From an uncultured bacterium (lineage in GTDB: Bacteria > Chloroflexota > Anaerolineae > J036 > Brachytrichaceae): a stretch of 35,902 nucleotides of DNA. Each line of letters opens with the position of its first letter. Positions within the stretch are counted from its first letter, which is position 1. The stretch is taken from NCBI GenBank assembly GCA_903921365.1, contig CAIXPS010000141.1:1-35902 (forward strand), written 5' to 3'. This document shows positions 4,248 through 34,851 of the stretch, piece after piece. The translations under genes were made by a program, and so were the position numbers. A model generated the notes under the pieces. That model was given only the letters and a program-made list of their open reading frames with translations. It was not told the DNA's origin and did no database searches.

Positions 4248-4341
4248 TATGAAGTGCGAAGTATGAAGTATGATCGCCCTGAGTTCATAACTCATAATTC
4301 ATGCCTCATACTTCATAACTCATACTTCGTACTTCATAATT
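4248..4341. repeat. Inverted pair of heptamer arrays
   Basis: From 4248 to 4275 the DNA reads as TATGAAG-type 7-mers (TATGAAG, TGCGAAG, TATGAAG, TATGATC). From 4286 to 4341 it reads as eight consecutive 7-mers of the opposite orientation: CATAACT, CATAATT, CATGCCT, CATACTT, CATAACT, CATACTT, CGTACTT, CATAATT. The two arrays can pair into a long imperfect hairpin. The same heptamer words recur at 12359-12426. Confidence 0.9.
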
Positions 4342-8663: not shown

Positions 8664-11600
8664 CTATTTACCAACAAGTGCAAAATCACTAATGGCTCCG
8701 TTTTCTGCGTTTGTTACATACAGGCGATTGTCATGAACAGTCAGGCCGGTGGGCAGGCTGTCGGCGGGGAAGGTGACTCCGGGAAGGTCCACCGGTTTGC
8801 CGTCAAGCGAGTAGGCCAGCACCTGGCGAGTCATCGGACTGCTGATCAACAGTGTGTTGCCGTCCACCGCGAGGAAAGGTTTCTGATCCACAGACTGAAG
8901 TTCGCCCTGATCCATGCTCTGCCAGGCCGGGATGACCCACGCGCGCAGGAACTTGTACTGCGGGTCGAACACCTGAATGCGCTGGTTCCAGATGTCGGCC
9001 ACATAGACATTCCCGGTTGCGTCGACAGCCAGCCCAACAGGTTCGTTAAACTCCCCGTTGCCCGTGCCCGTTTGCCCGAATTGCGCCACGTAGTTTCCTT
9101 CACGATCAAAGACCTGGATGCGTTTATTACCGGTATCTGAGACCAGCAGATGACCATTGTTGTCGAAGATGATCGCGCGCGGGCCGAAGAAGACAGTGGA
9201 GCGCTCGCTGCCTGGATCCGCGCTGACGCCGGGCGTGCCCCACGAGAACAGGAAGTTGCCGCTCGCATCGAACTTTTGAATCCGGTGGTTAAACGTGTCC
9301 GCGACGAAGATGCTCCCATCGGTGTCGACGGCAATCCCCCATGGATCGTTGAATTTGCCGTCGCTGTTGCCAAATCCACCGAATGTGCTAATCGGATTGC
9401 CTTTCGGGTCGGTCTTAACCACCCGGTTGGCTTTGTGATCGATGATGAAGCGCTCGCCATTCGACGCGAAGGCGAGATTCGTTGACCCCTGGAGCTTTAT
9501 GGCCGGGTTGACCGCAGCGTTGCTGCCCGATGCGACCGCCCCAACGCGGTAACTCCAGACTTTCGTTGCAACGTCATTGCGGATGAAAACCGTGAAGCGG
9601 TGTCCAGGCGACCATTTGTCGGGCGTCAGGCTTGTTTTGTTGAAAACCTGCGAGTAGCGAGTAAAGTCGCGATTGAGGATGATATCCCACAGCGCCGCGC
9701 GAGCTTGTGGATTCGTCAAAGAGTACGATATCCGATCCCACGTGAGATCGAAGTAGTCCTGCATCGGCCACCACACCAGCATGTAGTTGAACTTGGTGTA
9801 GTTGTCCTGAAGTTTCGTCTCGTTCTCGGTGCGCTTTGGATTACTGTCTCCGATCATAATCACTTCCTGATCGGAGTAGTTGTCTGGCAATCCGTCGCCA
9901 TTGAAACGGGCATTGGGGAATTCGCGCATATACCACGACATCGGCCAGCTGACGTCGCTGTCGTACCCGACTTTGAGCGACATATCGCCGTAAATGCTCT
10001 TCGAGAGCTCATCGATCTGGTTCAGCGCAATCTTCGTGCCCGGCGCGCCGTGGGCGTAGAACAGGAATTCTTTGGTGTAGTCGTAGTTGATATAGGTCAC
10101 CATGAACGCTGTCCGAATGGTCAAGATGCTCAGGAAGCCGAATGTTGCAAGGATCAGCGCCCGACCCAGATGTGCTTTGCTTATGCGACGAGTGAGATAG
10201 ACGACAAAGGCGATACCTGCGACGGTGGCAAGCACGCCCGCCGCCAGTCGGATCATGCCTATCGTGTCGCCGGGTTGAATATCCAGACCGCCGATTAACG
10301 ACAGGACACGGACACACAGCAACACGATGATCAGTGACAGTCCGCCCAGGGCCACGATGCTCCTGAGGGGGAGGGGTGGGGTCGCGGGGTTGGAAGGGCC
10401 GGAGGGCAATCGTAAAGCGTCTGGCGCGCCCACGGAGGGCAACCGTAAAGCGCCCGGCGTGCCCCTACCAAGAAACTCTGGCGTGCCCCTGCGTGGCGAC
10501 AGGACGTGATCGAGGAACCAGCCGGTGAGTAAGGCCATGGGTAGCGCAAAGTGCACGGTTAGCCAGGGCATTTTTTCGCCAGCCACGCTATAGATAATCC
10601 AAGTGGCGAATGTCCACCACACCAGGAAGAGCGGGAACAGCTTGGTCGGGTTCACAAACGCCCGGCCAATGGGTGTGTCCATGAATCCCTTCCCGGAGGC
10701 GCTCTGGGTCCAGGCAGCTTTATCGATGGCAGGCTGTTCGAGTTTCGCCACAGGCTCAACTAGCGAGACGCCGGGCGTGTCAGAAGGACCTGTTACGTCA
10801 GACGAAAACACGTCCTGCTCTGATTCGCTGGCGTCACGAGGCGCCCCCGATAACGGCGCGCCAGGCGCTGTGTTGTTGTCGTCTATGTTGCCCGGTTCTT
10901 CGGGACTGGCAACCGGCGCCGCCAGCAACTGGCCGGCGCGATAGGCGATATAAAAAATAGCGCACAGTGCGCCTATCACAAGCATGTATTCGTACAGCGG
11001 CACCAGCAGGGCGTAGTAGTAAGGTGGCTGGCTGCCGCGCTTTACATCTTGCTGTGCCATCCAATAACCCAGTTGTCCGACGAACCCCGTGCCGATTCCG
11101 GCGGCATTCGTGAAAACCGTGGTGAATAATGTCATCGTAATCGCGAGGAAGACCCCGGTAATGGGCAGCCAGCGGCGCCAGTTCCACGCGATCCCGATTG
11201 CGGCGCTGACCGCAACCAGCGCCATGCTCAGCGAAAACATGGTGGTGATCATCGACGCGTTGTTGAGCAGGTTGGCCATATCGCCAAGCAGGCTGATCTT
11301 GGCGAGTTCGGCGCCGGTGGTTAGTTGCCAGAGCGGGTTCAGGATGAGCAACAACGCGGGCGACGCCATGAACATGGTTGTGGTCAGAAAGACGATGAAC
11401 AGGCTGAATGCTGGCGCTACGGCAGTGGTGAACCGCAGCCACGCGCCAAAGAAACGCATGAACGCGTAGCTGACGGCTACACAGACGAGCGCCGTCAGCA
11501 GAAGTAAGACGCCGGCATAGACGAGTGTGCGGCCATCGATATTCAGCGTGAGCGGGTTTAGCTGAGTGACGATAGAACTGAGGTTCAGCGCTGACGAAGT

Positions 11601-12350
11601 GAGCTGGCTCACTAACTCAAAGATCAGGCTGGCAACCAGCATCACACCCGCAAGCACTGCGCCAAACCCGGCTGCTTTGAGGACATCACTCACCCGTCGC
11701 CGCGCGTTGTACAACTGAAGTAATGCCAGCGGCACAAGGAACATGAGGAACACCGCAACATTTAGAAACGATGTTGACTTGTCCGCCGCGTGAAATGCGA
11801 GCACGGCCGCCAGACCCACCAGCCAGCCGTATTGCCGGGTGACAAGGTAGCGCCACATGCATAACACCGTCAAGGTTGTCCAGACGAGGATGAATTCCTC
11901 CTGCCGGATGTAGCGGGCATGATAGAGGATGGATGGCGAGATCAGCAATGCCAGGGAAGCCACCAGCGCGCCTCCGCGCCCCAGCCAGCGCCTGAACAGG
12001 TAGGGCAGGGCAACGAGCAATACGCCGAAGACCGCAGTCGGAATGCGCGAGGTGAAGTCACTGTCGCCAAACAGGAAGTAACTCAGCGCGGTGATGTGGA
12101 ATAAGAAAGGCCCGTGCATTAACGGGGTATGCGCAAATCCTTTGCCTGTCGCGAGGTTGTAGGAGAAGTAGGTATGCAGGCTTTCATCGTGGCTCATGAC
12201 GCGCGCGCCCAGGTCCCAGAAGCGCGACACGACTGCGATCAGGATCAGCGCGATATAGAGGATTTTCTCCCAGTCCAGGGCGGCCAGCACAGGCATGTCC
12301 AGCCAGCTAAGGCGCGCGCGGCGGTTTACGTTGTCGGGTTGCTCATCCAT
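8664..12350 (-). CDS. Agl23-like (TIGR03663-type) GT39-fold membrane protein with C-terminal NHL repeats
   Basis: A 1228-residue polytopic membrane protein. The N-terminal half resembles dolichyl-phosphate-mannose/GT39-like transferases of the TIGR03663 (Agl23) type: first helix at about 28-45, then the extracytoplasmic acidic pair Asp55-Glu56 in MSHDESLHTYF, and HGPFLFH in the same loop. About ten further hydrophobic segments follow. Residues from about 960 to the end are soluble and carry at least three NHL units (DPWGIAVD, VADTFNHRIQKFD, EPVGLAVD, VADIWNQRIQVFD), expected to form a beta-propeller outside the membrane. A likely role is transfer of a lipid-linked sugar at the cell surface. 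Around residues 630-665 a loop is encoded by repeat DNA (10366-10505). No ribosome-binding site is seen; the gene follows the AT-rich heptamer array. Confidence 0.82.
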   Translation of the reverse strand: MDEQPDNVNRRARLSWLDMPVLAALDWEKILYIALILIAVVSRFWDLGARVMSHDESLHTYFSYNLATGKGFAHTPLMHGPFLFHITALSYFLFGDSDFTSRIPTAVFGVLLVALPYLFRRWLGRGGALVASLALLISPSILYHARYIRQEEFILVWTTLTVLCMWRYLVTRQYGWLVGLAAVLAFHAADKSTSFLNVAVFLMFLVPLALLQLYNARRRVSDVLKAAGFGAVLAGVMLVASLIFELVSQLTSSALNLSSIVTQLNPLTLNIDGRTLVYAGVLLLLTALVCVAVSYAFMRFFGAWLRFTTAVAPAFSLFIVFLTTTMFMASPALLLILNPLWQLTTGAELAKISLLGDMANLLNNASMITTMFSLSMALVAVSAAIGIAWNWRRWLPITGVFLAITMTLFTTVFTNAAGIGTGFVGQLGYWMAQQDVKRGSQPPYYYALLVPLYEYMLVIGALCAIFYIAYRAGQLLAAPVASPEEPGNIDDNNTAPGAPLSGAPRDASESEQDVFSSDVTGPSDTPGVSLVEPVAKLEQPAIDKAAWTQSASGKGFMDTPIGRAFVNPTKLFPLFLVWWTFATWIIYSVAGEKMPWLTVHFALPMALLTGWFLDHVLSPRRGTPEFLGRGTPGALRLPSVGAPDALRLPSGPSNPATPPLPLRSIVALGGLSLIIVLLCVRVLSLIGGLDIQPGDTIGMIRLAAGVLATVAGIAFVVYLTRRISKAHLGRALILATFGFLSILTIRTAFMVTYINYDYTKEFLFYAHGAPGTKIALNQIDELSKSIYGDMSLKVGYDSDVSWPMSWYMREFPNARFNGDGLPDNYSDQEVIMIGDSNPKRTENETKLQDNYTKFNYMLVWWPMQDYFDLTWDRISYSLTNPQARAALWDIILNRDFTRYSQVFNKTSLTPDKWSPGHRFTVFIRNDVATKVWSYRVGAVASGSNAAVNPAIKLQGSTNLAFASNGERFIIDHKANRVVKTDPKGNPISTFGGFGNSDGKFNDPWGIAVDTDGSIFVADTFNHRIQKFDASGNFLFSWGTPGVSADPGSERSTVFFGPRAIIFDNNGHLLVSDTGNKRIQVFDREGNYVAQFGQTGTGNGEFNEPVGLAVDATGNVYVADIWNQRIQVFDPQYKFLRAWVIPAWQSMDQGELQSVDQKPFLAVDGNTLLISSPMTRQVLAYSLDGKPVDLPGVTFPADSLPTGLTVHDNRLYVTNAENGAISDFALVGK
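10366..10505. repeat. Imperfect GC-rich repeats inside the NHL-fused gene
   Basis: On the coding (minus) strand the words GGGGCACGCC and GGGCGCGCC recur with CGCTTTACG and TTGCCCTCCG, giving two near-identical units of about 33 bp and a partial third. They encode GTPEFLG, then RGTPGALRLPSV and GAPDALRLPSG. The unit looks like an intergenic GC-rich element read through in frame, in a loop between two membrane segments. Confidence 0.8.
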
Positions 12351-12358
12351 ATTAAAGA

Positions 12359-12426
12359 AATTATGAATTAGAAATTATGAATTGGGAATTGTGAAGTATG
12401 AAGTATGATTTTCATAATTCATACTT
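12359..12426. repeat. Heptamer array with inverted heptamers
   Basis: Seven consecutive 7-mers (AATTATG, AATTAGA, AATTATG, AATTGGG, AATTGTG, AAGTATG, AAGTATG) cover 12359-12407. After a 5-nt spacer, two inverted 7-mers (CATAATT, CATACTT) cover 12413-12426. The array fills the gap between two glycosyltransferase genes and uses the same words as 4248-4341. Confidence 0.92.
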
Positions 12427-12431
12427 AGTAT

Positions 12432-14252
12432 CTACTGAACGCCGCTGGCTCTGTTTGCAGTGTCGCTGCTGAGCCACAGAATCCACTTCGTTACTAATTT
12501 CTCGTCGACAGTGCGTTTGGTGTACCAACGCACTAATGGAAGACAGTTGAGCTGGTTCGAACCAGGCGCGGGCGCGGCAGGTTGGCAACGCAGTTCAGCG
12601 AGCGTTGCGCCTGACGTAATGCGAAAAGCGGAACCCACATACACGCCTGTGCTTTCCGGCTTCACGTTAGTGGGCGTCAGTGCCGCCGCGCCATCAGTCA
12701 AGCGTGACACATAAGTGACGCCCAGTTGATTTCTGAGCGCCCAGCGTAATGCCGGCGGCGCCGCGTCGAGCACTTGCAGGGGCATCACGTTGGGATCGCC
12801 ATTGGCTCTCAGGCTGGTGGTCTCAATCGTTTGCACCAGATGATCGATGCCCGCGTCAGTCGCTTCAGCCACGTAGGATTCTGCGGGGTTGGTTGAGCGC
12901 ACTTGTGTCAGCTGGAACCCTGCGCCGAATGTGTAGATGACCATGCAGATGCCATACGCGAGCGCGATGCTGCGTAAGGCGATGCGCGTGCCCGAGTCGA
13001 CCAGCAGCGTGCATACAATGCCGGCGCCGACAATCATGATGCCTGCCAGCAGGATACTCAGGAGCGACGCGGGCTGTTGTTGTTCCGCGTAAAGGCTCAA
13101 ACCCAGGTAAGCATAGATCAACATCACAATCGTAACGCCGCAAACAACGGCGCCTATGACACGGGAAGGAGAGAGGGGGAGCAGGGGAGAGGGGAGAGGC
13201 ACAAGCAGTGCCTCGACCCAGAGATGGGTTGCCAGGCCGGCGCAGCCGATCATCAAGGGCAGCATGTCTGCAACTTCGCGGGATTGGTCGACGAGAAGCA
13301 GCAGCAGCCCGGCTGCGACCCATACCACCCAGATTGCGTCAATCTGGGTGAACTTCTGCTGGAAGACGAGCAGGGTGATGCTGATGATAGCGCTCAGCAT
13401 CAGCAATGGCTCATAGGCGATCAATCCCGAAACGACGCGCAATAGCCCCAGATTACCGGGCGTGACAAGTGTCGAAAACCAGGTCGCGATTCCGTTGAAG
13501 GCATCGCCCAACCCGGAAGGCCGCCAGAGAAACATGGTGCTGGCTAGAACGAAGGCGATGATGGCGCTTAACACGTCCATGAATGAAGGCATAAGCGTTG
13601 CGCGGGCAGCTCGCGATTTGTTGTTCAACACCACGATCAGCCCGCTCACCGCGATGACGAGCAGCGGGCTGATGGCATCCTGACCACAGGCCAGCAACAA
13701 GCCGGCACAGATTGCTGTCGCGGCGCGGCCTCGATTTCGCATAAACGTGAGTACAGCAGTTCCGGCAAGCGCCCAGGCGAGCATGTTCCCTTCCGCTTGC
13801 CGCGATGCAAACCAGAGGGTGGGTGACAGCGTCAGCAGGAGTGAAAAGACCAGAGCGCGACCTCGCCCCAGTTGCGCCCGCGCCAGAAGTGGCAGAAGGC
13901 AAATCCAGACGCCGGCCAGGGCTGTGACCAGCCGCGCCGTGAAGTTGGTTGCGCCGAATATCGACATGAGCATCGATTGAATGCCGCTGAAAAACGGGTC
14001 TGGGGACGTCAGGGCAGTGCCGCGCGCGAGGCTGAGACTGTCGAGTGCAATGCGGGACTCGGTGTTGGTCAGCGGCGTCGCTCCCAGCGCCCATACCCTC
14101 AGGGCGACAACCGCCAGCGCAATGAGCGCCCATAGACAGGTTTCGCGCGTGATGTTCATTCCTAAAGGATGCACAAGCCAGCTCGCGAGCTGAGGCAGGG
14201 ACGACGTCCCCATTCCTGTGTCATCCGCGATGTAAAGTTTATTTCTGGTCAT
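12432..14252 (-). CDS. GT39-like polytopic membrane glycosyltransferase
   Basis: A 606-residue membrane protein from ATG 14252; the frame is open to 14369 but the upstream part overlaps a decayed gene. About a dozen hydrophobic segments are followed by a soluble tail of about 150 residues. After the first helix comes the loop TPLTNTESRIALDSLSLARG, where a single Glu stands where GT39/GT-C enzymes normally have an acidic pair. PDPFFSGIQSMLMSIFGATNFTARL continues the family pattern. It resembles the N-terminal half of the neighbouring NHL-fused protein, so the two may share ancestry. A function as a lipid-linked sugar transferase is inferred; the reduced acidic motif leaves catalysis uncertain. 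A G/A-rich repeat lies within the frame at 13156-13200. Confidence 0.72.
   Translation of the reverse strand: MTRNKLYIADDTGMGTSSLPQLASWLVHPLGMNITRETCLWALIALAVVALRVWALGATPLTNTESRIALDSLSLARGTALTSPDPFFSGIQSMLMSIFGATNFTARLVTALAGVWICLLPLLARAQLGRGRALVFSLLLTLSPTLWFASRQAEGNMLAWALAGTAVLTFMRNRGRAATAICAGLLLACGQDAISPLLVIAVSGLIVVLNNKSRAARATLMPSFMDVLSAIIAFVLASTMFLWRPSGLGDAFNGIATWFSTLVTPGNLGLLRVVSGLIAYEPLLMLSAIISITLLVFQQKFTQIDAIWVVWVAAGLLLLLVDQSREVADMLPLMIGCAGLATHLWVEALLVPLPSPLLPLSPSRVIGAVVCGVTIVMLIYAYLGLSLYAEQQQPASLLSILLAGIMIVGAGIVCTLLVDSGTRIALRSIALAYGICMVIYTFGAGFQLTQVRSTNPAESYVAEATDAGIDHLVQTIETTSLRANGDPNVMPLQVLDAAPPALRWALRNQLGVTYVSRLTDGAAALTPTNVKPESTGVYVGSAFRITSGATLAELRCQPAAPAPGSNQLNCLPLVRWYTKRTVDEKLVTKWILWLSSDTANRASGVQ
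13156..13200. repeat. G/A-rich heptamer array inside the GT39-like gene
   Basis: The plus strand carries GGGGAGC, AGGGGAG, AGGGGAG as successive 7-mers with flanking variants. On the coding strand this reads as PLPSPLLPLSPS, a proline/serine/leucine loop between hydrophobic segments. Confidence 0.8.
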
Positions 14253-14277
14253 CGAATTCTTAAGTATGACGCTATTA

Positions 14278-14764
14278 TCATAGCAATTGTGCCTGACCCT
14301 GTTGGGTCGCGCCGACTTCACGCGCCAGACGCATGATCTCCGGCCACCTTTGCGCCAGTCCGTAAGCACCGGAAGTTTGCCCCACGCCAGACAGAACTTT
14401 GGACAGGATTAACAGGAGAAACAGGAAGGACAGGAGTAACAGGAAGGGAGAGACTGTCTAGTCTTTCTTCCTCTAAATCCTCTAAATCCTCTAAATCGTG
14501 TAAATCCTGTCCTCCCCTCCGATCCTGTTCTTCCTGTCTAAATTCTGTGTCTTTGCCAAACATCTGTTGGCGTGATTCAGGGTTGACCGGTGGGCGGCCG
14601 GTGAATTTGGGCGGGATTTCGGTCATCGCCTTGTTGATCAGCACCGCCACAGGGTTGAGGGCACTGGCGCACGCTTCCAGCCCAAGGCGCTGCGCTTCGA
14701 GCGGCAGGGCGACTTCGATGAGTTTTTTGGGCAGCCCCAAAGGGACTCCAAGCCATTTAGTCAT
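14278..14764 (-). pseudogene. Decayed DUF1156-type DNA methylase remnant
   Basis: On the minus strand the fragment begins [19 protein letters not shown] then [17 protein letters not shown] is the start signature of DUF1156 methylase-type proteins. It continues directly as [20 protein letters not shown], a segment that in full-length members belongs after the catalytic 'GG.IPLEA' motif, and then [17 protein letters not shown]. The join at PLEA suggests an internal deletion between two stretches that both encode PLEA. After 14560 the frame enters an iterated array (14401-14546). Beyond that, 14400-14278 in another frame reads [20 protein letters not shown] and ends at TGA 14278-14280, possibly the original C-terminus. 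Full-length members are many hundreds of residues, so this is non-functional as a methylase. Confidence 0.7.
14401..14546. repeat. Nonamer arrays within the decayed methylase
   Basis: The first part has 9-mers TAACAGGAG, AAACAGGAA, GGACAGGAG, TAACAGGAA. The second has four exact-period 9-mers at 14471-14506 (CTCTAAATC three times, then GTGTAAATC). The third part (CCTGTCCTCC... CCTGTTCTTCCTGTC) is roughly the inverse of the first, so the whole can fold on itself. Confidence 0.9.
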
Positions 14765-14767
14765 TGT

Positions 14768-17344
14768 TTACCCGCATTGATACACAATACTCTGACCCGC
14801 CTGATGGGCAATCCGGCACAGGGTTGTGAACTTTGCCAGGCCTTCGGGGGTGTATCTTGATAGTTCCTGTTGCCCGACAATGACGTAACTGACGTTGAAC
14901 TGCCGCAGAATCTGGCTGGCGACGGTTGTGTCGGTTGTGTTATAGAGCGTCTCGATCAGCGGCTCGCGTCGCGCGGGTTCATCGTAATTGCCGCGCCACT
15001 GGTGCTCATGCCCACCCCAGCCGAGCAGGGTCGGCAGGCCGGTAAAAGCCGAGATGCGACCGTTGTACTGATAAGCGGCATAGTGATCTCCGGGCGATTC
15101 GACGATCACCGGAGCGCCGCGCACGTTGATATTGAGCCACTCAATCAATTTCGCGTCCTCGGGTCGAGCCTGCAACAGATAGGCGGATCCATCCAGGGTC
15201 GGCTTGCTCGTGAAGCCGCCAGCCTTGGAAAATGCGGCATACAGCGGGTACAACATCCCGGCTAGGATCAGGGCGCCAACGACGCCCAGACCTATCTTCG
15301 AGCCTATTCCCGGCGTGGCGCTCAACGCCATGAGCCCGAATGCTGCCGCGATTGCCCAGACAGTCCACGCCTGGTAATAGAACTTGAAGACGGTGTTCAT
15401 GCGCGTGCCAAACAAGTCTTGCAGGAAGATAAACTCCACTGCGAGGGTCAGCAGCATGCCGCCGAGGAAGAGAAGCAACACGAATTTGTCGATGAGGGGA
15501 GCGGGAGAGCGGGAGAGCGGGGGAGAGGAGAGGAGAGCGGGGGAGAGGGGGCGGGTCAGGATGAGGGTGGCGGCGAGGCTGGCGCAGATTGCAAGCAGCA
15601 GCACAACCCAGGGATCGCTGATGCGGGTGAGCAGCCTGCTGGTGATCGTGTCACGAGTCACGCCCATGATGTTGCCGGTCGTGGTGAACTCGGTCACATA
15701 CCCTCGGATCGTGGGCGATACCACGGCGATCATCACCAGCGCAAGTAGCCCAATAACAAAACACCCCGCCAATAGTCCGAGGGAAGTTTTCAATATCTGA
15801 GGAAGAGGTATGCCAGCCGTGCCGCCTAAGCGTTTCTGCACGACCAGGGATCGCGCGATGTGGATCACGAGCGTAACCAGCAGCGGGGCGAACATCATGA
15901 AGAACTGGATGAACCGGGTGCCGTTGAACAGGTTCACGCCGATGCCGCGCGCCTGGCTGGCAAATGTGCTGTAAAACGGGAGATACAAAAGATATCCCAC
16001 GACGAAAAATGCAGCCCCTTGAATGATCGCGGGAAGTAACGAATCATGGGTTGTCCACCGGCGTATGAGAATCGCTCCGATGACCACGGCGCCATACACG
16101 GGAAAATCCCACGTGTTCATGAACGATAAGCCGCCGAGCACAAATGCCGTCAGGAGGATATCGGGCGCATTGCGCGTAAACCATTTCAAAGGCGGCAGAC
16201 CATCCAGCGAAAACTGACGCTCCGACCCTGGAGGGTGAGCGGGTTTCTCTTCCTGACGCGTGAGATAGAAAAGCGCGATGCCCACGGCAAGCAGGACGAA
16301 CGGCAGGTTCATCACATGCGGATGGTTGTCGCCCAGGATGAAGCTGAACGATGGCATCTCGGTGATGACTTCCTGATCCGTGCCCACGGGGGTGTAGTCG
16401 TGGATCACGCGCGACCAGTCCCACCACCAGTAAAAGCGGGTAGGGACGATACCGGCACATTCGACCGGCTTTGTGTCGAGTGCGCGCACATCCAGCCACT
16501 TCCAGAATGACGTTGGCGCCAAGTTAGTGCAGCGAACCGACTCCATGAACCCGCCCATGTTGCCCATAATCCCCAGCATGCACGCAGTCAGCAGTCCCGC
16601 AACGATCGCTCTCCCCCTCTCCCCTCTCCCCTCTCCTCCTCTCTCCTCTGCTCCTCTGCTCTCGCTTGGCGGCTCCCCTGCTCCTCTGTACGCCGCCCAC
16701 AGGTTATACCCGACGCTAAAAGCGCTGGTGAGTGTCAAGGCGAAGAAATGCGCGCCGCCCAGGTTGAAGCCGATGCCGGGCAGGACGCCGCTGATCTTCG
16801 TCACCATCGCAACGAGGATATAGCCGAAGTAGTAATAGCTGATCGAGAATCCTGCCAGCCATGCGTCATTTGGCGGGAAAGTGGGGCTGCGCAGGATGGC
16901 GTTGATGTACATGGATTCCATGAACTTCTCGCCGCCAGCCTCAACGATCTCAGGGTTGTAGGCGCGGTAGACGGCGCACAGGATGAACGAAACGGCGAAC
17001 AGAACCTCTACGGTCACAATAGCCGGAAGAATGTCGCGCGTTATTGGGTAATCTTTGCGCCTTCTGTTTTGGCCGTCCACAGGGGATGCAAAGCCATAAT
17101 GCCACCGCAGGATCAGGCCAATGGCGGCAACCAGAACGAGCGCCATCAGGACGGCGCCCGGTTCGTTGCGCGCCAGCCCGAGTGTGACGATGATCCAATA
17201 GAGGAATCCACCCAGCAACAGGCCGAAGGCCTTGCTCAGGCCGTACCCGCGATCGGGCAATGGGCGCAACCACTGCGCTGTGACCAGCAGGCCGCAGAAC
17301 GCAAACACCTGCGCCCAGATGTACCAGATAACGACATCGATCAT
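14768..17344 (-). CDS. DUF2298 ('YYY' domain) polytopic membrane protein
   Basis: An 858-residue integral membrane protein of the DUF2298/TIGR03662 type. After about five N-terminal hydrophobic segments comes the family signature: GEKFMESMYINAILRSP, TFPPNDAWLAG and the tyrosine run SYYYFGYILVA. The loop GDNHPHVMNLPF lies further on, and near the C-terminus are FGTRMNTVFKFYYQAW and the acidic, His-bearing loop with ESPGDHY. Members are found in Chloroflexota and archaea next to Agl23-like genes. A GT-C-like role with lipid-linked sugars is suspected but unproven. Two G/A-rich arrays lie within the frame (15497-15557 and 16606-16690). It ends 8 nt after the 1757-residue fusion gene begins its downstream neighbourhood, so the two are tightly co-transcribed. 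Confidence 0.82.
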   Translation of the reverse strand: MIDVVIWYIWAQVFAFCGLLVTAQWLRPLPDRGYGLSKAFGLLLGGFLYWIIVTLGLARNEPGAVLMALVLVAAIGLILRWHYGFASPVDGQNRRRKDYPITRDILPAIVTVEVLFAVSFILCAVYRAYNPEIVEAGGEKFMESMYINAILRSPTFPPNDAWLAGFSISYYYFGYILVAMVTKISGVLPGIGFNLGGAHFFALTLTSAFSVGYNLWAAYRGAGEPPSESRGAEERGGEGRGERGRAIVAGLLTACMLGIMGNMGGFMESVRCTNLAPTSFWKWLDVRALDTKPVECAGIVPTRFYWWWDWSRVIHDYTPVGTDQEVITEMPSFSFILGDNHPHVMNLPFVLLAVGIALFYLTRQEEKPAHPPGSERQFSLDGLPPLKWFTRNAPDILLTAFVLGGLSFMNTWDFPVYGAVVIGAILIRRWTTHDSLLPAIIQGAAFFVVGYLLYLPFYSTFASQARGIGVNLFNGTRFIQFFMMFAPLLVTLVIHIARSLVVQKRLGGTAGIPLPQILKTSLGLLAGCFVIGLLALVMIAVVSPTIRGYVTEFTTTGNIMGVTRDTITSRLLTRISDPWVVLLLAICASLAATLILTRPLSPALLSSPPLSRSPAPLIDKFVLLLFLGGMLLTLAVEFIFLQDLFGTRMNTVFKFYYQAWTVWAIAAAFGLMALSATPGIGSKIGLGVVGALILAGMLYPLYAAFSKAGGFTSKPTLDGSAYLLQARPEDAKLIEWLNINVRGAPVIVESPGDHYAAYQYNGRISAFTGLPTLLGWGGHEHQWRGNYDEPARREPLIETLYNTTDTTVASQILRQFNVSYVIVGQQELSRYTPEGLAKFTTLCRIAHQAGQSIVYQCG
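15497..15557. repeat. G/A-rich octamer array inside the DUF2298 gene
   Basis: The plus strand has GAGCGGGA, GAGCGGGA, GAGCGGGG as successive 8-mers and then GAGAGGAGAGGAGAGCGGGGG. The coding strand gives LSPALLSSPPLSRSPAPL in a loop between membrane segments. Confidence 0.8.
16606..16690. repeat. C/T-rich array inside the DUF2298 gene, opposite orientation
   Basis: On the minus (coding) strand the array contains AGAGGGG three times in a row, GAGGAGCAG words and GGGGAGC. It encodes SESRGAEERGGEGRGERGR, a charged loop. Its purine strand is opposite to that of the array at 15497-15557 in the same gene. Confidence 0.8.
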
Positions 17345-17351
17345 AATTTCC

Positions 17352-20300
17352 TTACTGGACGAAGGCGGACGCGCTAGAGAGTGGTGAAACCATCTGGTCG
17401 TTCACCTCATATACCGTCGTGCCTGTATTCTGGTAGGCGATGCGCAGGAATCCATTCTGAACCATCTCGTCGAACTTGGGCAATCCTGCCGGGTTGTAGT
17501 AACTCTTCTCAAGCATCCCAAGGATCACGTATTTCGCGTTATAACGACGGATCATCACCAACGCCTGCTGTATGTCCGGCGTGCTGTAAAACGTATCCAG
17601 GTCGGCGTCGCGATCATAGACGATGCGGTCGTTTAACGCAGCGCGTTGCTGGCGCTCGTGCCATTGCCAACCCACGACCGCGGGCAAACCGGTATAAATT
17701 GAGAAGCGATTGCCCCATAGATACAAGTCGCCGCCCGTTGTTCCTTCGATGATGACGGGCGATCCTTTCACATGATCCTGCATCCACTTAATCGCCTGCA
17801 TATCATCCACAAGCGGGAAGTCGTTAACCTGATTTTGCTTGCCCTCTGTTCGCGTCGCCGTAGCCATGTAGGCCATTCCGTCCAGGCCGCGAGGGGCAGT
17901 ACTGACGTAACGATCCGCCAATTTGGCCGGAATGGCAAAGATCGGGTAAAGTGCGGCGAGGAATACAACGACAGCGGTGGCCATGATGAAGACCGGTCGA
18001 ACGACGTGCCTGGCAACCTTCGCAACCTTAATGGACTGGTGTGTGAGTTCCTCGATGCGGTCGAAGACCCACATCAGAAGGACGGCTGAGGTAACACCGA
18101 GTATCAGCCAGGCTTGTATGTAGAACTTGAACAATGTATTCATGCGCCCGATGTCGCCCTTTAGCGTAAAGAATTCCACAAAGAGCGTCAGCACAAATGC
18201 GCCGGCAGTGAGTAACCACAAGATGCGCGTCTGCGGCGCCGTGCCGGGCATGATCGCAGCGATGAACGCGATTGCGGCCAAAGGCACGACGACCACTGCG
18301 ATTTGCACGCCTCGAAGCGCCAGGATGATCCCAATCACGAACGCAACCAGGGCGACACCCCAACCCAGCACGCCTTTACGAGTTGAGAGACCCAGGTTGC
18401 GCCAGACGCCCAAAGCCAGAAATGCCACAATCGGCACGAGGAACAAGCCATAGATCGTCAGGTAAACGTCCAGCGGCGTGCGTTCAAACACCCATGGTTC
18501 AACGCTGTTGTAGGCTGAGCCGTAGTTTTCGAGATAGGGGATAAAGAATGCGCGCGTCAGAATCCCGAACACGATAATCGCCGGCGCAACGCGCAGGAGA
18601 CTGGCAACGACATTACTTAACGAGGGTTTGTCACGAGCTTCCTCCAACGCGCTGATGACCAGTGCGCCGACACAGACCAGCAAGTAGACGGGATAATCCC
18701 ATGTGTTGGTAGGCCAGAGCGATCCAACCGCAATTGCGCCCAGCACCACCCCCGGCCATTTTCGCGCGCCCATCACAAACGCAAGCGCAAACGCAAGCGC
18801 CAGGAAGGCGATGGGCATCGCCATCATGTGCGCGTGCAGATCGGCATACAGGAATGTGAAGATTGGGAACTCGGCAATCTGCACGGAATCGACCGCGGTT
18901 CCGGCGGTCGGTCGGGTTGGATTCCAGTACGCCCAGTTGGGGTAGACCGGAAGTTGTGCGCCGGTCACCCATTTGACCAGACCATCGAAGGTCGCCTGCA
19001 CAGGCGCGACGCCGGTTTTCACGCCGCCGAGTTGCTGCCAGGCAGGAACCAGCGTATCGATCTCGCGCAGATTACCCAGCACACACACGAATAGGGCGGC
19101 AATGCACCCGGCCATGATCGCCCGTGTTACACGTAAGCGCGACTCGGTCAGGTAAGAACTCTTCGATCCAAGGCGGGCGTTCAGCGTAGCGCCGATGCCA
19201 AACGCCCCGGATGCTGTCAAACCGAACAACATGGGCAGGACGATGTTGTACGCGATGCTGGGATCGATGCCAAGCGCCTTGATGGGCGTGCTGACGATCA
19301 CAAACCCGAAGTAGTAATAGTTGATGTACCCGCCGCTGAACCACGGGTCAATCGGTGGGAAGTAAGTCGAGCGCAGCACCGCATTCAAGTAGGCGAAGTC
19401 CATCGGTTTTTCGCCGCCCATGTAGGGATGCCACAAGTCAGGATTGCTGCTGCGGATCAGGAGGAACAAACCGAATGCGACCAGAAACACTATTTCAGAC
19501 GCCAGGATGATTGCGAAGCGCTTGTTCACAAGGGCGAGCATCATTGCTTGATTGCGGATGAACACAATGATTCCAACCGCCACAACGACCGTAATCACTG
19601 CCCATAACTCAAGCGGGGTGTACTGGGCGATCTTCGTGCTGCTCAACCACCAGGCAATAACCGCCACCAGCAGCAGCGCCAGTATCTTGGCGAATGAATA
19701 CCCGCCGTCGAGCAGAGGGTGTATGAGGGAGCAGGGGAGAGGAGTAGAGGAGGAGAGGGGAGCAGGAACGGCGCCGCCTTGCGTCTGCCCCTCTGTTCCC
19801 TCTTCACCGCCGTTGCGGGCAGCCCGCAACGTCCGTCCCGTCTTCTTCCCCTGTGCAGTCGCGACGGCAATGATCGGGAATGTCGCGATGCCGAGCACCT
19901 CAATCAACAATATCCACGCAATCACCGCGAGCGGTTGGGACTGATTCAAAGGCGAATCGCGGCGGAACAAATCGCTCCATGTGCCACCGGCCTCCTGGGC
20001 GGCGCGAGTGGTGTCGTCGAACAACATCCCGCGTGGCGTGTTGATGGCCGCAAGCGGTGTCTGCTGAATTGTGCGCGTCAGGTCATATTTGCCAAGCACC
20101 TGTTCCGCAAGCGCGCGCGAATAAGCCGGCGTTTTCTTAAAGATCAATACGCGCGGATGATCGTAGACAGAAAAGGCTTCCTCGGCGTAGGGATATGGGA
20201 CCTGAATGCCGGGCGGCGTGCCTTGTGTATTGGGAGTGCGACGCAACGGCTGCGCCATCTCCTGATCATTAAAGGTAAACGGGCCCAGCCGTGTGAACGA

Positions 20301-22625
20301 GTTGAAGTCTGCGACCAGCTCGAAGCCTAACTCGCCGTTGAACATGGCGCGGTAATACTCGGTCGTCATCGGGAAGCGCCAGGGCAGGCGCGGGATCGCG
20401 CCATACAGGCGGTTGCTGGACATGACCAGGTAGTCTGCTTCGTCGAGCCAGTTCAGAACGTTGGGTTGCTTCTCAGGGATGTCTTCGGCGTAATTCTGGA
20501 TTTGCCCATCGCTGCTGGATTTCAAACCCGTATAGTAGTTTCCATAGGGGTCCTTGCCGTCAACGGGTTGTGGCACGGCGTCATCCCAGTGCTCGTTTGC
20601 AACGACGTTTGTCCGGGCCGTCACGCCTGAGCCGCTCTGCAATTGGAAGGTCAGACCGTATTCCTCATTGGTGAGCAGCTTGCCAGACCCGACCGGAATC
20701 ACCGTGTGATTGGCGTCCACCTGCAGCTGTGCCGTCTGGAGCAAGACGCCCCCATCCGGTGTGGTCAAGCGGACTTCGAGCAGGCCATCGCCTTGCACAT
20801 GGTTTAACTCAATCTCCAGGTTTGACACGATCCTGGGTTTTTCCAGATCGAGATGGAACTGGATGGACTGGAAGGCGCCCGTCTTGATATCCAGCTTCGT
20901 GAGTGGAAGCTCAAGATGGTTGATCTCTCCGGTTGGCTCTTTCCATCGCAGCGTGACCGCAGTTGGGATGTTGTCGAAAACCCAGTGAGATGCGGTAATA
21001 CGAGTCACGGGTTCGTCATAGATTTGTGTGAAGGCGACTGCCCAGAGCAGGTTGCCAACCAGGACGGCCCCCACGATGATGGGTGGGCCGACGCGTGCCA
21101 GCAGAGAGGGGACAGAGGCCCACTTGAAGTGACCTCTGGCTACTGCGCCTTTCCCCTGTCGCCATAATGCCACGAGTGCGACAGCCGCACACAGGCACAG
21201 GGTAGGGTAAATGGGCAGGAGATACCGCATGGATTTTGTCCACTGCGTTGATTGATACAGGAAATAAAGACCGCCCCAGGTCACCGGGATGATATAAGCA
21301 GTCCAGCGACGCCGGCGCAGCACCTGTCGCAAGCAATACAGGAAACCCAGGCACGCCGCAAGCCCCAGCGGAATGCCCATCCCCCAGAAAACCAGGTTTA
21401 CCAGCGGAAATACGATGGGCGTGCGATTCGCCCATTGATGCGCAAATGGCGGGCTATTCGACCCATCCATCAGCGTCTGGGCAAGCGTTAGCTGTTCGAT
21501 CCACCGTGATGACGGCGCGATAATCTCACGCACAAACTTCGGCAACTGCGCCCCGATTGCGCATATTTTGGTAAGCGCGCTGGCGTCAACTGCGTTGCAC
21601 TGTTGGAGCGTTAACGCGAATTCCGAAGCGCTATTCCCAACGAATGAATAGGGTTGAGCGACACGAAAACTGGCAAATGTGCCGACGCCGGCAAGGATCA
21701 GGGCTATCGCCGCGGACAGCAGTGGAACAAGACCGCCTCGCCGATCGCGAATCAGCGCAACGGCGACGCTCAGGATGATCAGTGGAACCAGCGGCCAGAC
21801 GCTGATCTTGCTGGCAATCCCGCAGCCGGCAGATATCCCAGCGAGTAAGCCGTACAAGGCGAAGCGTGACTCACTCAACCCCCAGCGCATCAGACTGGCA
21901 GGGCGCCAGCGGGTCTGGTCGGTTACAAGCAACACGCAGAAATAGATGGTGAGTGTGACAAAAAGATTGGCGGTGCTGTCAACGGTGAAGAAGTGGCTGG
22001 ACTGTATCTGCATCACCGCGAGAGCGCACAAAGCGGCCGCCAGGAGTCCAACTCGCCAGCCGAAAAGTCTGCGACCGATCAAGTACAGAACAAATACGGA
22101 TATCAAGTCCGCCAGCGCGGACCAGGCGCGCCCGATGATCACAAGCTTATCGTAGAAGGTTATCGCGCCGGAGAGACATTTTGAGCTATCCGGCCCGAAC
22201 AAAAGTGCATTTAGTAATACGGGTAGCGCTGCCGGTTTTGTGCCGAGCAATGCATTTGGCGCGCATCCGGTATCAAGAAACTGACCAATATAACGTGGGA
22301 TGAAGAGCGGAAGCGTTCCATAGACATAGCCGCGCCCCCAGTCGGTGTTATATGGATTAAGCGTGGACTTGCCAGAATCAAAGTATGCCGTCAGGTCGCC
22401 GGGAGGTCGGATCTGACCTGCGAGCACGGCGATATAACGCTCATCTGGATGAAGCAACCGTCCTTCGTCCCAGTTGAGATTATTGAACCTGAAAATCGCT
22501 CCGATCAAAATGACGAGAACGACGGCAAGAGGATGCCAGAAGCGCCTGAACTGCGAAAGGTTGACGGCTTTTGCGCGCTCCACATTCAGGATTGTTTTCT
22601 GAGGGCTATTCGGGTTACTTATCAC
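17352..22625 (-). CDS. Giant fusion: GT39-like glycosyltransferase plus DUF2298 membrane protein
   Basis: A 1757-residue protein beginning at GTG 22625 with GGAG nine bases upstream. Residues 1 to about 560 look like a GT39/PMT-type transferase: first helix at about 31-47, then the acidic pair Asp61-Glu62 in LLHPDERYIAVLAG and a string of hydrophobic segments. About 560-900 is a soluble, beta-rich extracytoplasmic region. From about 960 on is a complete DUF2298 unit with LNAVLRSTYFPPIDPWFSGG, INYYYFGFVIVS and, near the end, GRMNTLFKFYIQAW and KGSPVIIEGTTGG. Residues near 950-965 are encoded by a G/A-rich array (19719-19772) just at the join. The downstream DUF2298 gene starts 7 nt after its stop, so this half is effectively duplicated in tandem. 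Confidence 0.83.
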   Translation of the reverse strand: MISNPNSPQKTILNVERAKAVNLSQFRRFWHPLAVVLVILIGAIFRFNNLNWDEGRLLHPDERYIAVLAGQIRPPGDLTAYFDSGKSTLNPYNTDWGRGYVYGTLPLFIPRYIGQFLDTGCAPNALLGTKPAALPVLLNALLFGPDSSKCLSGAITFYDKLVIIGRAWSALADLISVFVLYLIGRRLFGWRVGLLAAALCALAVMQIQSSHFFTVDSTANLFVTLTIYFCVLLVTDQTRWRPASLMRWGLSESRFALYGLLAGISAGCGIASKISVWPLVPLIILSVAVALIRDRRGGLVPLLSAAIALILAGVGTFASFRVAQPYSFVGNSASEFALTLQQCNAVDASALTKICAIGAQLPKFVREIIAPSSRWIEQLTLAQTLMDGSNSPPFAHQWANRTPIVFPLVNLVFWGMGIPLGLAACLGFLYCLRQVLRRRRWTAYIIPVTWGGLYFLYQSTQWTKSMRYLLPIYPTLCLCAAVALVALWRQGKGAVARGHFKWASVPSLLARVGPPIIVGAVLVGNLLWAVAFTQIYDEPVTRITASHWVFDNIPTAVTLRWKEPTGEINHLELPLTKLDIKTGAFQSIQFHLDLEKPRIVSNLEIELNHVQGDGLLEVRLTTPDGGVLLQTAQLQVDANHTVIPVGSGKLLTNEEYGLTFQLQSGSGVTARTNVVANEHWDDAVPQPVDGKDPYGNYYTGLKSSSDGQIQNYAEDIPEKQPNVLNWLDEADYLVMSSNRLYGAIPRLPWRFPMTTEYYRAMFNGELGFELVADFNSFTRLGPFTFNDQEMAQPLRRTPNTQGTPPGIQVPYPYAEEAFSVYDHPRVLIFKKTPAYSRALAEQVLGKYDLTRTIQQTPLAAINTPRGMLFDDTTRAAQEAGGTWSDLFRRDSPLNQSQPLAVIAWILLIEVLGIATFPIIAVATAQGKKTGRTLRAARNGGEEGTEGQTQGGAVPAPLSSSTPLPCSLIHPLLDGGYSFAKILALLLVAVIAWWLSSTKIAQYTPLELWAVITVVVAVGIIVFIRNQAMMLALVNKRFAIILASEIVFLVAFGLFLLIRSSNPDLWHPYMGGEKPMDFAYLNAVLRSTYFPPIDPWFSGGYINYYYFGFVIVSTPIKALGIDPSIAYNIVLPMLFGLTASGAFGIGATLNARLGSKSSYLTESRLRVTRAIMAGCIAALFVCVLGNLREIDTLVPAWQQLGGVKTGVAPVQATFDGLVKWVTGAQLPVYPNWAYWNPTRPTAGTAVDSVQIAEFPIFTFLYADLHAHMMAMPIAFLALAFALAFVMGARKWPGVVLGAIAVGSLWPTNTWDYPVYLLVCVGALVISALEEARDKPSLSNVVASLLRVAPAIIVFGILTRAFFIPYLENYGSAYNSVEPWVFERTPLDVYLTIYGLFLVPIVAFLALGVWRNLGLSTRKGVLGWGVALVAFVIGIILALRGVQIAVVVVPLAAIAFIAAIMPGTAPQTRILWLLTAGAFVLTLFVEFFTLKGDIGRMNTLFKFYIQAWLILGVTSAVLLMWVFDRIEELTHQSIKVAKVARHVVRPVFIMATAVVVFLAALYPIFAIPAKLADRYVSTAPRGLDGMAYMATATRTEGKQNQVNDFPLVDDMQAIKWMQDHVKGSPVIIEGTTGGDLYLWGNRFSIYTGLPAVVGWQWHERQQRAALNDRIVYDRDADLDTFYSTPDIQQALVMIRRYNAKYVILGMLEKSYYNPAGLPKFDEMVQNGFLRIAYQNTGTTVYEVNDQMVSPLSSASAFVQ
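19719..19772. repeat. G/A-rich array at the fusion joint of the 1757-codon gene
   Basis: The plus strand reads AGGGAGC, AGGGGAG, AGGAGTA and then GAGGAGGAGAGGGGAGCAGG. On the coding strand it gives APLSSSTPLPCSLI, in the linker between the GT39-like and DUF2298 parts. Confidence 0.8.
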
Positions 22626-22645: not shown

Positions 22646-23389
22646 TTACTTTGTGGCTTCTATTATGTAGCGATATGCGAAAAGTTTGAAGAATGGGAGG
22701 TTGCCGATCCGGTCGTTGATCTCGCTGGCCTGCGGCAACCGGTTAAAAAACGGACGCGGCAGGAATCCCAACCCGGTGATCTGAATCTGGCTGAACCCAT
22801 GCTTCTTGAGTTTTGCAGTCAGGTAAGGAATGTTCGTTGTCACAAGCCTCTTCTCTGCTTTCCAACCGACAAATAATGTTACGAACAGATACCAGCTTGG
22901 GTTAAAGGCGCCAGGCTCTGTAAAAACGATTCTCCCGCCGGGGCGAAGCGTTTTGTAGATCATCGGCAGGTACTCATCCAGCGGGACGTGGTGGAGAATA
23001 TCAGCCCCAACCACTGCCGAATATTGGCTGTTCTGCGGCAATGTTACGGATACTTGATCCAGCGCCAAGGAAAGACCCGCCGCAAACGCCTGCAGGCGTT
23101 TGAGCGATTCCTCGCTGACATCAACGGGCAACACATGCAATCCTGCCTGCAGCAAGGGAATGGTTAATCGACCGGTGCCTGAGCCGAAATCGACAACACG
23201 CGGAGCGTCGTGAGATCGCACTCCCAAAGCGCCGAGCCGTCCGCGTTCAAGCAGTTTGTTGACGACGAGCTGCGTTTCACTGGCGGTATGCATTGGCGGA
23301 TGAAGAATCAGTTCCTGCTGGTATTGCTTGTCCGGCTGGTCGAAGACTTCGCGCTGTAGGTCTATGCCCGAATTGGTCATCTTAATCAT
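22646..23389 (-). CDS. Class I SAM-dependent methyltransferase
   Basis: A 247-residue Rossmann-fold methyltransferase. Motif I is VVDFGSGTGRLTIPLL, the acidic residue after strand 2 is in LPVDVSEES, and the later DILHHVPLDEYLPMIYKTL and RPGGRIVFTEPG are typical motif-IV to VI blocks. The substrate is unknown. The start ATGA overlaps the stop of the 660-residue glycosyltransferase by 4 bp, and the 1757-codon gene begins 20 nt after its stop, so it is embedded in the glycan operon. Methylation of a sugar or lipid intermediate is a reasonable inference. Confidence 0.88.
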   Translation of the reverse strand: MIKMTNSGIDLQREVFDQPDKQYQQELILHPPMHTASETQLVVNKLLERGRLGALGVRSHDAPRVVDFGSGTGRLTIPLLQAGLHVLPVDVSEESLKRLQAFAAGLSLALDQVSVTLPQNSQYSAVVGADILHHVPLDEYLPMIYKTLRPGGRIVFTEPGAFNPSWYLFVTLFVGWKAEKRLVTTNIPYLTAKLKKHGFSQIQITGLGFLPRPFFNRLPQASEINDRIGNLPFFKLFAYRYIIEATK

Positions 23390-25368
23390 TTTCCCACAAA
23401 AGTCGTGAACACTACGAAATGCTTCTCACTACATAGAGAGCCAGTGATCACTTGAGCTATTCCATCGGGGTAACGGGCTTGAAGCCGGCTGACTGACTCT
23501 TTGTCATCCTCATTGAGCGCAAACCAACCGGGTTGTTCATGCAGATCAACAGCAGCAGCGTCGATGGCCCCGATACCGGCGCCCACAGTGTTGGAGAAGT
23601 TAATGTCGCCGATCCAGACGCCTACAGCGCGCGAGTCCACCCAGTAGGGATAGCCAACGACATAGGCGTTATTCCGGTTGTGCCCGCTCGAAATCCATGC
23701 ATTCATCTCGTTCCCAATGTCGCTGGCATTTTGTGAACGCGGACAATAGGAGGCTGGATATTCCACAAAAACGCGTGAGATATTCAGCCCGACAACAGCC
23801 ACACAGACCACTGCTACCAACGCGCCTCCCGGCAATACCCATTTCCGATCATCGAGCAACGAGCCGGGAATATAGGCGCACACGCACATCAACAATGGAA
23901 TTGCGCCTCCGGTGCGCAACACGCTGGGGTTTTCGTGTGGGAACGCGATTGCAATAGCCGACGGCAACAACATGATAAATCCGGCCGAAAGCATCACCAC
24001 CGGCCAGGGGTCGCGCTTTTTGATGCTCAGTGCGATGACGCCGGCTGCCCCGATGACCAGTAAACCGCCAAGCACCTCATCCATCGCCGGTTTGTCCACG
24101 AGATTGGCCACCCACACTTCATCTTTTGTGTAGTTGAACGAAAGCACTACGTTCTTCACGTTGTCGATGAAGATATCCGCAATATTGCCTTCAATAGGAG
24201 TTTCAAGGCTGGTCACGCGTGTGGCTGCGCGGTAGAGAAACTGGTCGAGGTTCTCAGTGATGTAACGCAGCAATGGCATAAATACAAGCACTGCCATCAC
24301 CAGCGACAACGCCCCATTCAGCAGCGCATAACGCGCCAGGTGCGGCTGGCGATGGACGTACTGCCAGACGACCCACACCCCGATGGCGATAACGTAAACA
24401 ACGATCATTGCGCGGAACGGGATGTAGCCTTGTAACCCGATCCCAAGACAAACCCCTGCGGCCAGCATGGAATTGCGCTCGGAACGCCGCAGACCGCGCA
24501 CGAGAAAGTACATCGTCCAGGCGACGGCGCACGGGTTTAGACCGTGACGCAAGCCGAAGCGGCCTGCCAGCACGCCCCAACTTGCGACAGCGGCGAATAG
24601 CGTGGCAATTAATGCGGTTTTCAGGCCAAATACTTCACGGGCGAGCAGAAAGACGCCTGGCAGCATGATGAGGCTGATGAGCGCCGTGCCAATCTTGAGC
24701 GCCATGAAGTCGGGTCGCAGGTTGAACAGCTTGATCAGCATGACAGTCCAGTAGAACTGCCATGGCTCACGCCCGGTGTTGCGTTCAAAGAAAACGTGCG
24801 GCGTTCCGTTCAGGACATCAGTGATGTCCAGCAGTTTTTCTGTGTGATCGCTGTTCATCTCGCGCGGGTTGTCGTACAGGTTGATGAACCGGAACCCGGC
24901 GCCCAGCGCCAGAATCAACCCAAGGATGACAACCGGCGCGAATTGTGCATGGCTTGTGCGTGTGCCTTGAACAAAGGACAACTTCTGCTGTTGTCTGACA
25001 GACCATACAAGCCACCAGCATACGATACTGATGATCCAAAGGATGACGCCATGGATTGTGTACAGGTTGCCCGAACTAAAGACAAATGCCCCCGCGCCTG
25101 CCGCGAGCGAGACAACCAGCAATATGACGCGCGCCTTAAACGGGAGTCGCGGGGATGAACGCGTTTGCAGGATCGGCGCTTGCGCTTGCGGTTTTATGCT
25201 GATGACGGCGCAGGCGGCGGCGATGATGAAACAAGCGACGCCCAGCCCTGCCATGTCGGCGGCAATGGCTAGCTGTGCGGCAATACCGACCACTATTGCC
25301 GTAACAGTCAGCATGTTCCTGTAAATGCTAAAATCGCCTTTCGATGAATCAACTTGACCGACACTCAT
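23386..25368 (-). CDS. GT39-like (ArnT/PMT-type) membrane glycosyltransferase
   Basis: A 660-residue polytopic membrane protein and the first gene of the minus-strand glycan block. Four hydrophobic segments precede the GT39-like part. A helix at about 144-160 leads to the loop RFINLYDNPREMNSDHTEKL with acidic residues near 174-177, the position of the catalytic acidic pair in this fold. It continues PWQFYWTVMLIKLFNLRPDF, then many membrane helices and a soluble C-terminal domain from about 530. The ATG at 25368 has a strong AGGGAGCG ribosome-binding site. It overlaps the divergent methyltransferase start by 25 bp. Confidence 0.83.
   Translation of the reverse strand: MSVGQVDSSKGDFSIYRNMLTVTAIVVGIAAQLAIAADMAGLGVACFIIAAACAVISIKPQAQAPILQTRSSPRLPFKARVILLVVSLAAGAGAFVFSSGNLYTIHGVILWIISIVCWWLVWSVRQQQKLSFVQGTRTSHAQFAPVVILGLILALGAGFRFINLYDNPREMNSDHTEKLLDITDVLNGTPHVFFERNTGREPWQFYWTVMLIKLFNLRPDFMALKIGTALISLIMLPGVFLLAREVFGLKTALIATLFAAVASWGVLAGRFGLRHGLNPCAVAWTMYFLVRGLRRSERNSMLAAGVCLGIGLQGYIPFRAMIVVYVIAIGVWVVWQYVHRQPHLARYALLNGALSLVMAVLVFMPLLRYITENLDQFLYRAATRVTSLETPIEGNIADIFIDNVKNVVLSFNYTKDEVWVANLVDKPAMDEVLGGLLVIGAAGVIALSIKKRDPWPVVMLSAGFIMLLPSAIAIAFPHENPSVLRTGGAIPLLMCVCAYIPGSLLDDRKWVLPGGALVAVVCVAVVGLNISRVFVEYPASYCPRSQNASDIGNEMNAWISSGHNRNNAYVVGYPYWVDSRAVGVWIGDINFSNTVGAGIGAIDAAAVDLHEQPGWFALNEDDKESVSRLQARYPDGIAQVITGSLCSEKHFVVFTTFVGK
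25326..25334 (+). promoter_or_regulatory. Extended -10 placing a leaderless start for the divergent methyltransferase
   Basis: TGCTAAAAT matches an extended -10 element. It ends 9 nt before ATG 25344, so transcription would start at or very near the start codon. This suits a gene that has no ribosome-binding site. No good -35 box is seen. Confidence 0.45.
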
Positions 25369-34747: not shown

Positions 34748-34824
34748 TCAAAGAGACAATTGGACAAAGTCACTGCGTGGGGTTGAATCCGTTCTGGCGA
34801 GTTATGACGTTTAATGATTAGTGA

Positions 34825-34851
34825 TTGAGTGAATTGAGTGAAATGAGTAAG
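34825..34851. repeat. Nonamer array at the anti-sigma factor start
   Basis: Three 9-mers TTGAGTGAA, TTGAGTGAA, ATGAGTAAG; the third contains the ATG chosen as start. The period keeps the frame open, so upstream TTG codons remain possible starts. Confidence 0.8.

Follow-up and report, generated by a model that had tools for sequence, protein, structure and literature searches.

The window, by which we mean the whole stretch of 35,902 nucleotides that was analysed and which is the entire contig (C141) of a 6.88-Mb genome assembly in 603 contigs, encodes a 1757-residue protein that probably combines two GT-C membrane glycosyltransferase units in tandem. The protein descends from an old fusion, a free paralogue of its second half is encoded next to it, and it would transfer sugars outside the cell. 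Predicted models of both halves matched GT-C structures, and each half carried acidic residues in its first external loop; two GT-C cores are therefore most likely present in the fused protein, and DUF2298, the family of the second half (here YYY), is most likely a GT-C family. DUF2298 has two old paralogues, F (fused) and S (free), and the window genome has one of each. The genes and units concerned are as follows.

17352 to 22625, minus strand: fusion gene of 1757 codons with a GTG start and without internal stop, N-terminal GT-C unit (predicted) plus F-type DUF2298/YYY unit
19902 to 22625, minus strand: N-terminal AglB/ArnT/Pmt-like GT-C unit, residues 1-908 including the linker (PMT_2 above cut-off, model and fold matches)
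17400 to 19928, minus strand: F-type DUF2298/YYY unit, residues about 900-1742 (profile scores, alignment and model)
14768 to 17344, minus strand: free S-type DUF2298/YYY gene, 858 aa, starting 7 nt past the fusion-gene stop
22440 to 22451, minus strand: HPDE acidic motif of the N-terminal unit, residues 59-62

As shown by profile searches, TIGR03662 scored 512.1 bits in the fusion protein (residues 961-1741) and 500.8 bits in the free protein against a cut-off of 300.25, and PF10060 (DUF2298) scored 370.5 bits (residues 986-1509) and 369.5 bits against a cut-off of 27.8. The free 858-residue protein matched DUF2298 along its whole length. Both translations contained YYYFG, an instance of the motif YYYxG, which we take to be the signature of TIGR03662 and the source of its name; each of the three tyrosines and the glycine was kept in 90 or 91 of 91 aligned YYY rows. 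In the first half of the fusion protein the PMT_2 match was weak (30.7 bits against a cut-off of 26.1, residues 167-311). As to CAZy GT39 versus another GT-C family for this unit, PMT_2 was barely above its cut-off, and the matches to AglB, ArnT and Pmt4 were all strong. The first-pass annotation had described a fusion of two families and a second DUF2298 gene within 7 nt; the first is borne out by frame, profile scores and independent assemblies, and the second by the 858-codon gene. An AAGGA stretch, similar to a Shine-Dalgarno sequence, overlapped the fusion-gene stop ahead of the free gene. Together with the 7-nt gap it makes co-transcription of the two genes plausible at this locus, as had been proposed for two YYY units from one transcript, but the adjacency was not fixed in relatives: a free DUF2298 gene lay at most 200 nt downstream of 31 of 85 fused units, some loci being cut by contig ends.

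AlphaFold models were built from alignments of the window and named-locus proteins and were then compared with known structures. The YYY model (pLDDT 89.2, pTM 0.92) matched STT3 with a Z score of 19.1, AglB with 16.7, Pmt4 with 15.7 and ArnT with 15.6. GT-C chains and chains with a GT-C domain covered Z scores from 19.1 to 8.3 and the first unrelated chain followed at 4.6, so the predicted model has a GT-C fold. Over 119 residues its C-terminal part matched the domain at the C-terminus of AglB (2.4 A, Z 11.6), and three extra helices were predicted ahead of the GT-C core. The model of the N-terminal unit (pLDDT 84.7, pTM 0.87) matched AglB (Z 29.1), ArnT (28.1), Pmt4 (26.7) and Pmt1-Pmt2 (26.2). 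Foldseek alone, at E <= 0.001, returned one match for the YYY model versus 24 for the N-terminal unit. When the two halves were compared with each other by profile-profile alignment, the probability was 92 and E was 6e-7, over 89 columns only. A sequence search of the PDB with the free YYY protein gave no matches, and a PDB search with the YYY profile returned no GT-C structure, its weak matches being triosephosphate isomerases and others at E 0.13-0.81. The N-terminal profile retrieved ArnT at E 0.067 and one unrelated match from the PDB.

According to the accessible text of PMC6801728, the first external loop of GT-C enzymes carries an acidic motif, DxD or DD, with E allowed in place of D. 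Such a motif was present in the N-terminal unit: in a structure alignment of the window unit with 37 of 38 listed N-terminal units (L192 left out), D61 was found in 38 of 38 rows and E62 in 37, both in the first external loop. The YYY structure alignment comprised the two window rows and 89 of 98 listed YYY units. E1072 together with an acid (D or E) at position 1076 was present in the first external loop in 89 of the 91 rows, and D1093 also belonged to the acidic set of this loop. The YYY motif is therefore E-x3-D/E, with a spacing unlike the usual DxD, DD or DE. E1072, H1264, R1494, K1500, H1656 and R1672, from several external regions, were invariant in all 91 rows. These are candidate catalytic residues, and they come with a testable enzyme class for a family that the libraries call 'uncharacterized membrane protein'.

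Three neighbouring genes belong to the same cluster.

23386 to 25368, minus strand: 660-codon PMT_2 gene upstream of the fusion gene, part of the recurring cluster
12432 to 14369, minus strand: 645-codon Agl23-like gene, TIGR03663 68.2 bits, under the cut-off of 126.25
8664 to 12350, minus strand: 1228-codon Agl23 (TIGR03663) gene with an NHL propeller, 251.3 bits against the cut-off of 126.25

The gene order PMT_2, fused F gene, S gene, small Agl23-like gene and large Agl23-like gene with NHL recurred in relatives, and a homologue of the 645-residue protein in the same position at locus L034 scored 131.6 bits for TIGR03663. An Agl23-like gene was present in 60 of 141 YYY loci, many of them cut short, and it often stood directly after the S gene. 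In a Binatia locus (L146) the NHL propeller was on the fused protein instead. No canonical STT3 was detected in 61 Chloroflexota genomes at E <= 1e-15. The accessible text of PMC11182771 describes Haloarcula Agl23 as a putative hexose-P-dolichol flippase, the purified protein of which moved lipid-linked oligosaccharide; in that of PMC8756737 a DUF2298 gene is merely listed beside PMT2 genes.

The cluster with its Agl23-like genes most likely glycosylates surface molecules from polyprenyl-phosphate sugars. Sugars would be put on polyprenyl phosphate inside the cell and the loaded carriers would be flipped outward with the help of the Agl23-like proteins. The GT-C units would then transfer the sugars outside the cell, onto surface glycans or proteins, and the fusion may hold two transfer steps close together. 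No activity of any DUF2298 protein was reported in the papers found. The YYY units could also be non-enzymes of GT-C fold that assist the N-terminal transferase and the Agl23-like proteins as subunits for sugar-lipid translocation or scaffolding, a reading to which we give perhaps one chance in a handful or slightly better. It is consistent with the missing canonical DxD/DE in YYY, with a neighbour, Agl23, that is itself flippase-associated, and with the S genes that often directly precede Agl23-like genes. The fold matches also included GPI transamidase subunit U (Z 10.2), a transfer-inactive GT-C fold that we take to be non-enzymatic. However, the charged residues that are invariant throughout the YYY alignment lie in external regions and resemble an active site, which argues for transferase units.

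The history of the two paralogues was followed in trees of 121 of 190 complete YYY units, in an enlarged tree of those plus the units of loci L074-L103, and in hand-picked sets of 60, 57 and 41 rows; units with incomplete profile cover had been left out beforehand. Clade F held all fused units of the 60-row tree (SH-aLRT 99). Two fused proteins from outside the phylum, from Binatia (L146) and Thermoanaerobaculum (L192), fell elsewhere in the 121-unit tree. F adjoined archaeal genes in the 60-row tree, some of which are tandem pairs (L129, L150); the 57-row tree gave this placement no support.

In family f40, lone N-terminal genes were found in at least 15 genomes among the matches listed, and in all 7 loci fetched they lay 57-317 nt ahead of a YYY gene; five other f40 genomes retained the intact fusion. 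Before these five were added, the adjacent YYYs fell with S in the 121-unit tree and were about equally distant from F and from S in the enlarged tree, and AU tests on the 60-row set were compatible with a placement beside F (p 0.778) as well as beside S (p 0.887). In the 57-row tree, whose fused f40 rows also include three rows of f34, f42 and f59 and whose lone-unit rows include one f42 row, the YYYs adjoining lone N-terminal genes nested among the f40 S genes with support of 100. In the 41-row tree the lone N-terminal units were interleaved with fused ones, again with support of 100, and with one mixed pair at 99. Because the adjacent YYYs nest with S and the lone units interleave with fused ones, these sequence trees indicate repeated loss of the F half in f40, the N-terminal half staying beside S. 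Fission as the source of the lone N-terminal genes was rejected, as the adjacent YYYs were of S type once the five fusion-keeping genomes were included, and the loci and trees examined contained no simple fission, in which two separate genes would still encode the two halves. The reverse loss was seen in genome G200, which had an F-type YYY without the N-terminal half. Genome G048 carried both a fused N-terminal unit and a lone one of 628 aa (L227 6521-8407), which shows that, in addition to losses, there are lone paralogues.

The fact that the F half was repeatedly lost in one family, with the N-terminal half kept, indicates that the fused pair is not indispensable. It weakens the earlier suggestion that the fusion implies physical cooperation of the two families. 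The annotation had also called for split versions in relatives: separate halves do exist, through loss of the other half, but no pair of both halves as two genes was seen. The repeated losses within one family offer natural comparisons for what the F half does. It is also conceivable, though rather unlikely in our estimate, that the fusion is a covalent GT-C heterodimer, with two different active cores packed in the membrane that carry out two transfer steps in succession on a single lipid-linked glycan, and that the free S-type YYY replaces the F half where it is lost. Tandem GT-C chains, with two cores here and three in the double form, would in that case constitute an organisational class of their own among membrane glycosyltransferases.

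The joint of the tandem could be located apart from the G/A-rich array that lies near it.

19917 to 19988, minus strand: true joint, a conserved linker, residues about 880-903, from alignments (36 fused proteins, 22 free ones)
19710 to 19856, minus strand: variable loop between YYY helices 1 and 2, residues 924-972, 4-49 residues long in 36 fused proteins
19723 to 19771, no strand assigned: G/A tract in the variable loop, residues 952-968
15494 to 15556, no strand assigned: G/A tract within the free YYY gene, in one of its loops
16603 to 16667, no strand assigned: tract of C/T, which reads G/A on the coding strand, in a different loop of this free gene
13158 to 13205: G/A tract in the 645-codon Agl23-like gene

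The YYY unit of the fusion started near residue 900, after a linker that reads AGGTWxxLFxRxSPLNQ in near relatives, as determined by alignment with the 22 free YYY proteins. Helix 1 of this unit (residues 897-920 in the model) aligned with helix 1 of free DUF2298 proteins. The array was past this helix, in the loop that leads to helix 2, and not at the joint, where the first-pass annotation had placed it. This loop was 4 residues long in 17 of the 36 fused proteins, 5-34 in 18 and 49 in the window protein. It was of low confidence in the YYY model and is probably cytoplasmic, because its start carries positive charges.

The window contained exactly four G/A tracts versus none in each of 60 first-order Markov simulations, and three of the four were outside the fusion gene, two in the free YYY gene and one in the 645-codon gene. 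None was found in 23 loci of the window's own family. Elsewhere in the same genome, tracts lay in frame within dnaX-like, cheR-like and pgi-like genes (L206, L215 and L217 on contigs C412, C520 and C586; named by reading translations, not by search). The array does lie within about 60 codons of the joint, but we regard the suggestion that it records how the fusion arose as very improbable: the array is inside the YYY unit, in a loop that spans only 4-5 residues in 20 of the 36 fused proteins, and of 85 fused and 107 free YYY genes 2 each carried a tract, so that tracts are not confined to fused forms. Position and distribution thus rule out a fusion scar. Since it is off the joint, in few fused genes and also in unfused and unrelated genes, the array is a dispersed low-complexity insert of the window's genome that is tolerated in a flexible loop, and the case is a warning against taking such inserts for fusion scars. 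A perfect palindrome with 9-base arms in the variable loop (19812-19830) was considered as a repeat element and rejected: with up to 1 mismatch allowed, the genome has one copy of it. Elsewhere in the window, at 4284-4341, 12356-12408, 14403-14508 and 34820-34848, there were short tandem arrays whose period was 7 or 9 bases.

The fusion was widespread. In a search of 40 genomes of relatives, own genome included, DUF2298 was present in 38 and absent from 2; 27 had both an open frame of at least 1300 aa and one of 700-1000 aa, and 11 had other or cut frames. Across the phylum Chloroflexota, DUF2298 was found in 194 of 300 genomes and the N-terminal unit in 188 of 300 at E <= 1e-20. The loci read in detail, a non-random sample in which the 80 named loci are the best 80 of 562 confirmed matches, held 190 complete YYY units: 101 free, 79 fused singly and 10 in five double proteins. 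The single double protein that was scanned (L118) had two YYY units and TPR repeats. Isolate records with the fusion included Thermomicrobium sp. CFH 73360 and, with a double protein, Oscillochloris sp. ZM17-4. The results indicate that the fusion is old in Chloroflexota and that its architecture is ordinary for the phylum. That a mis-assembly or frame error joined two genes, which the annotation had itself considered and for which one could cite a window that is one contig among 603, is practically ruled out by the identical architecture in numerous independent assemblies, among them isolates and genomes in a single contig. Outside Chloroflexota, an N-terminal unit fused to YYY was observed in Binatia (L146 11375-16210, with NHL) and in Thermoanaerobaculum (L192 5442-9074). 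The genome of Haloferax volcanii also gave a match to DUF2298. Free YYY genes were observed in Lachnospiraceae (L072, L124, L125 and L126), one of them on a plasmid among polysaccharide genes, and in the relative G016 (L064 3979-6493) the free YYY gene was split into two overlapping frames.

Both window genes are members of TIGR03662 and PF10060, well above the cut-offs, and the libraries give no function for either family. TIGR03662 presumably comprises proteins with one copy and a second class that has two copies, an additional N-terminal region and TPR repeats. The double protein L118 belongs to this second class, whereas the window protein, with the N-terminal region and one copy, represents the commonest fused form (79 single versus 5 double). 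The architecture is standard for the family; what is informative is the assignment to GT-C and the history of F and S. In the literature covered, we recognised no paper on the function or fold of DUF2298 (TIGR03662, PF10060). Among the Agl23 neighbours, the 1228-residue protein is above the TIGR03663 cut-off and, unlike Agl23 of Haloarcula hispanica, carries an NHL propeller; the 645-residue protein scores below it. In comparison with the GT-C enzymes AglB/STT3, ArnT, Pmt4 and Pmt1-Pmt2, both halves match in predicted fold, and each has acids in the first external loop, those of YYY in an altered motif; YYY also differs in its three extra front helices. PMTs function as dimers of two GT-C chains, according to the accessible text of PMC7759382, whereas the window protein would have two GT-C units on one chain.
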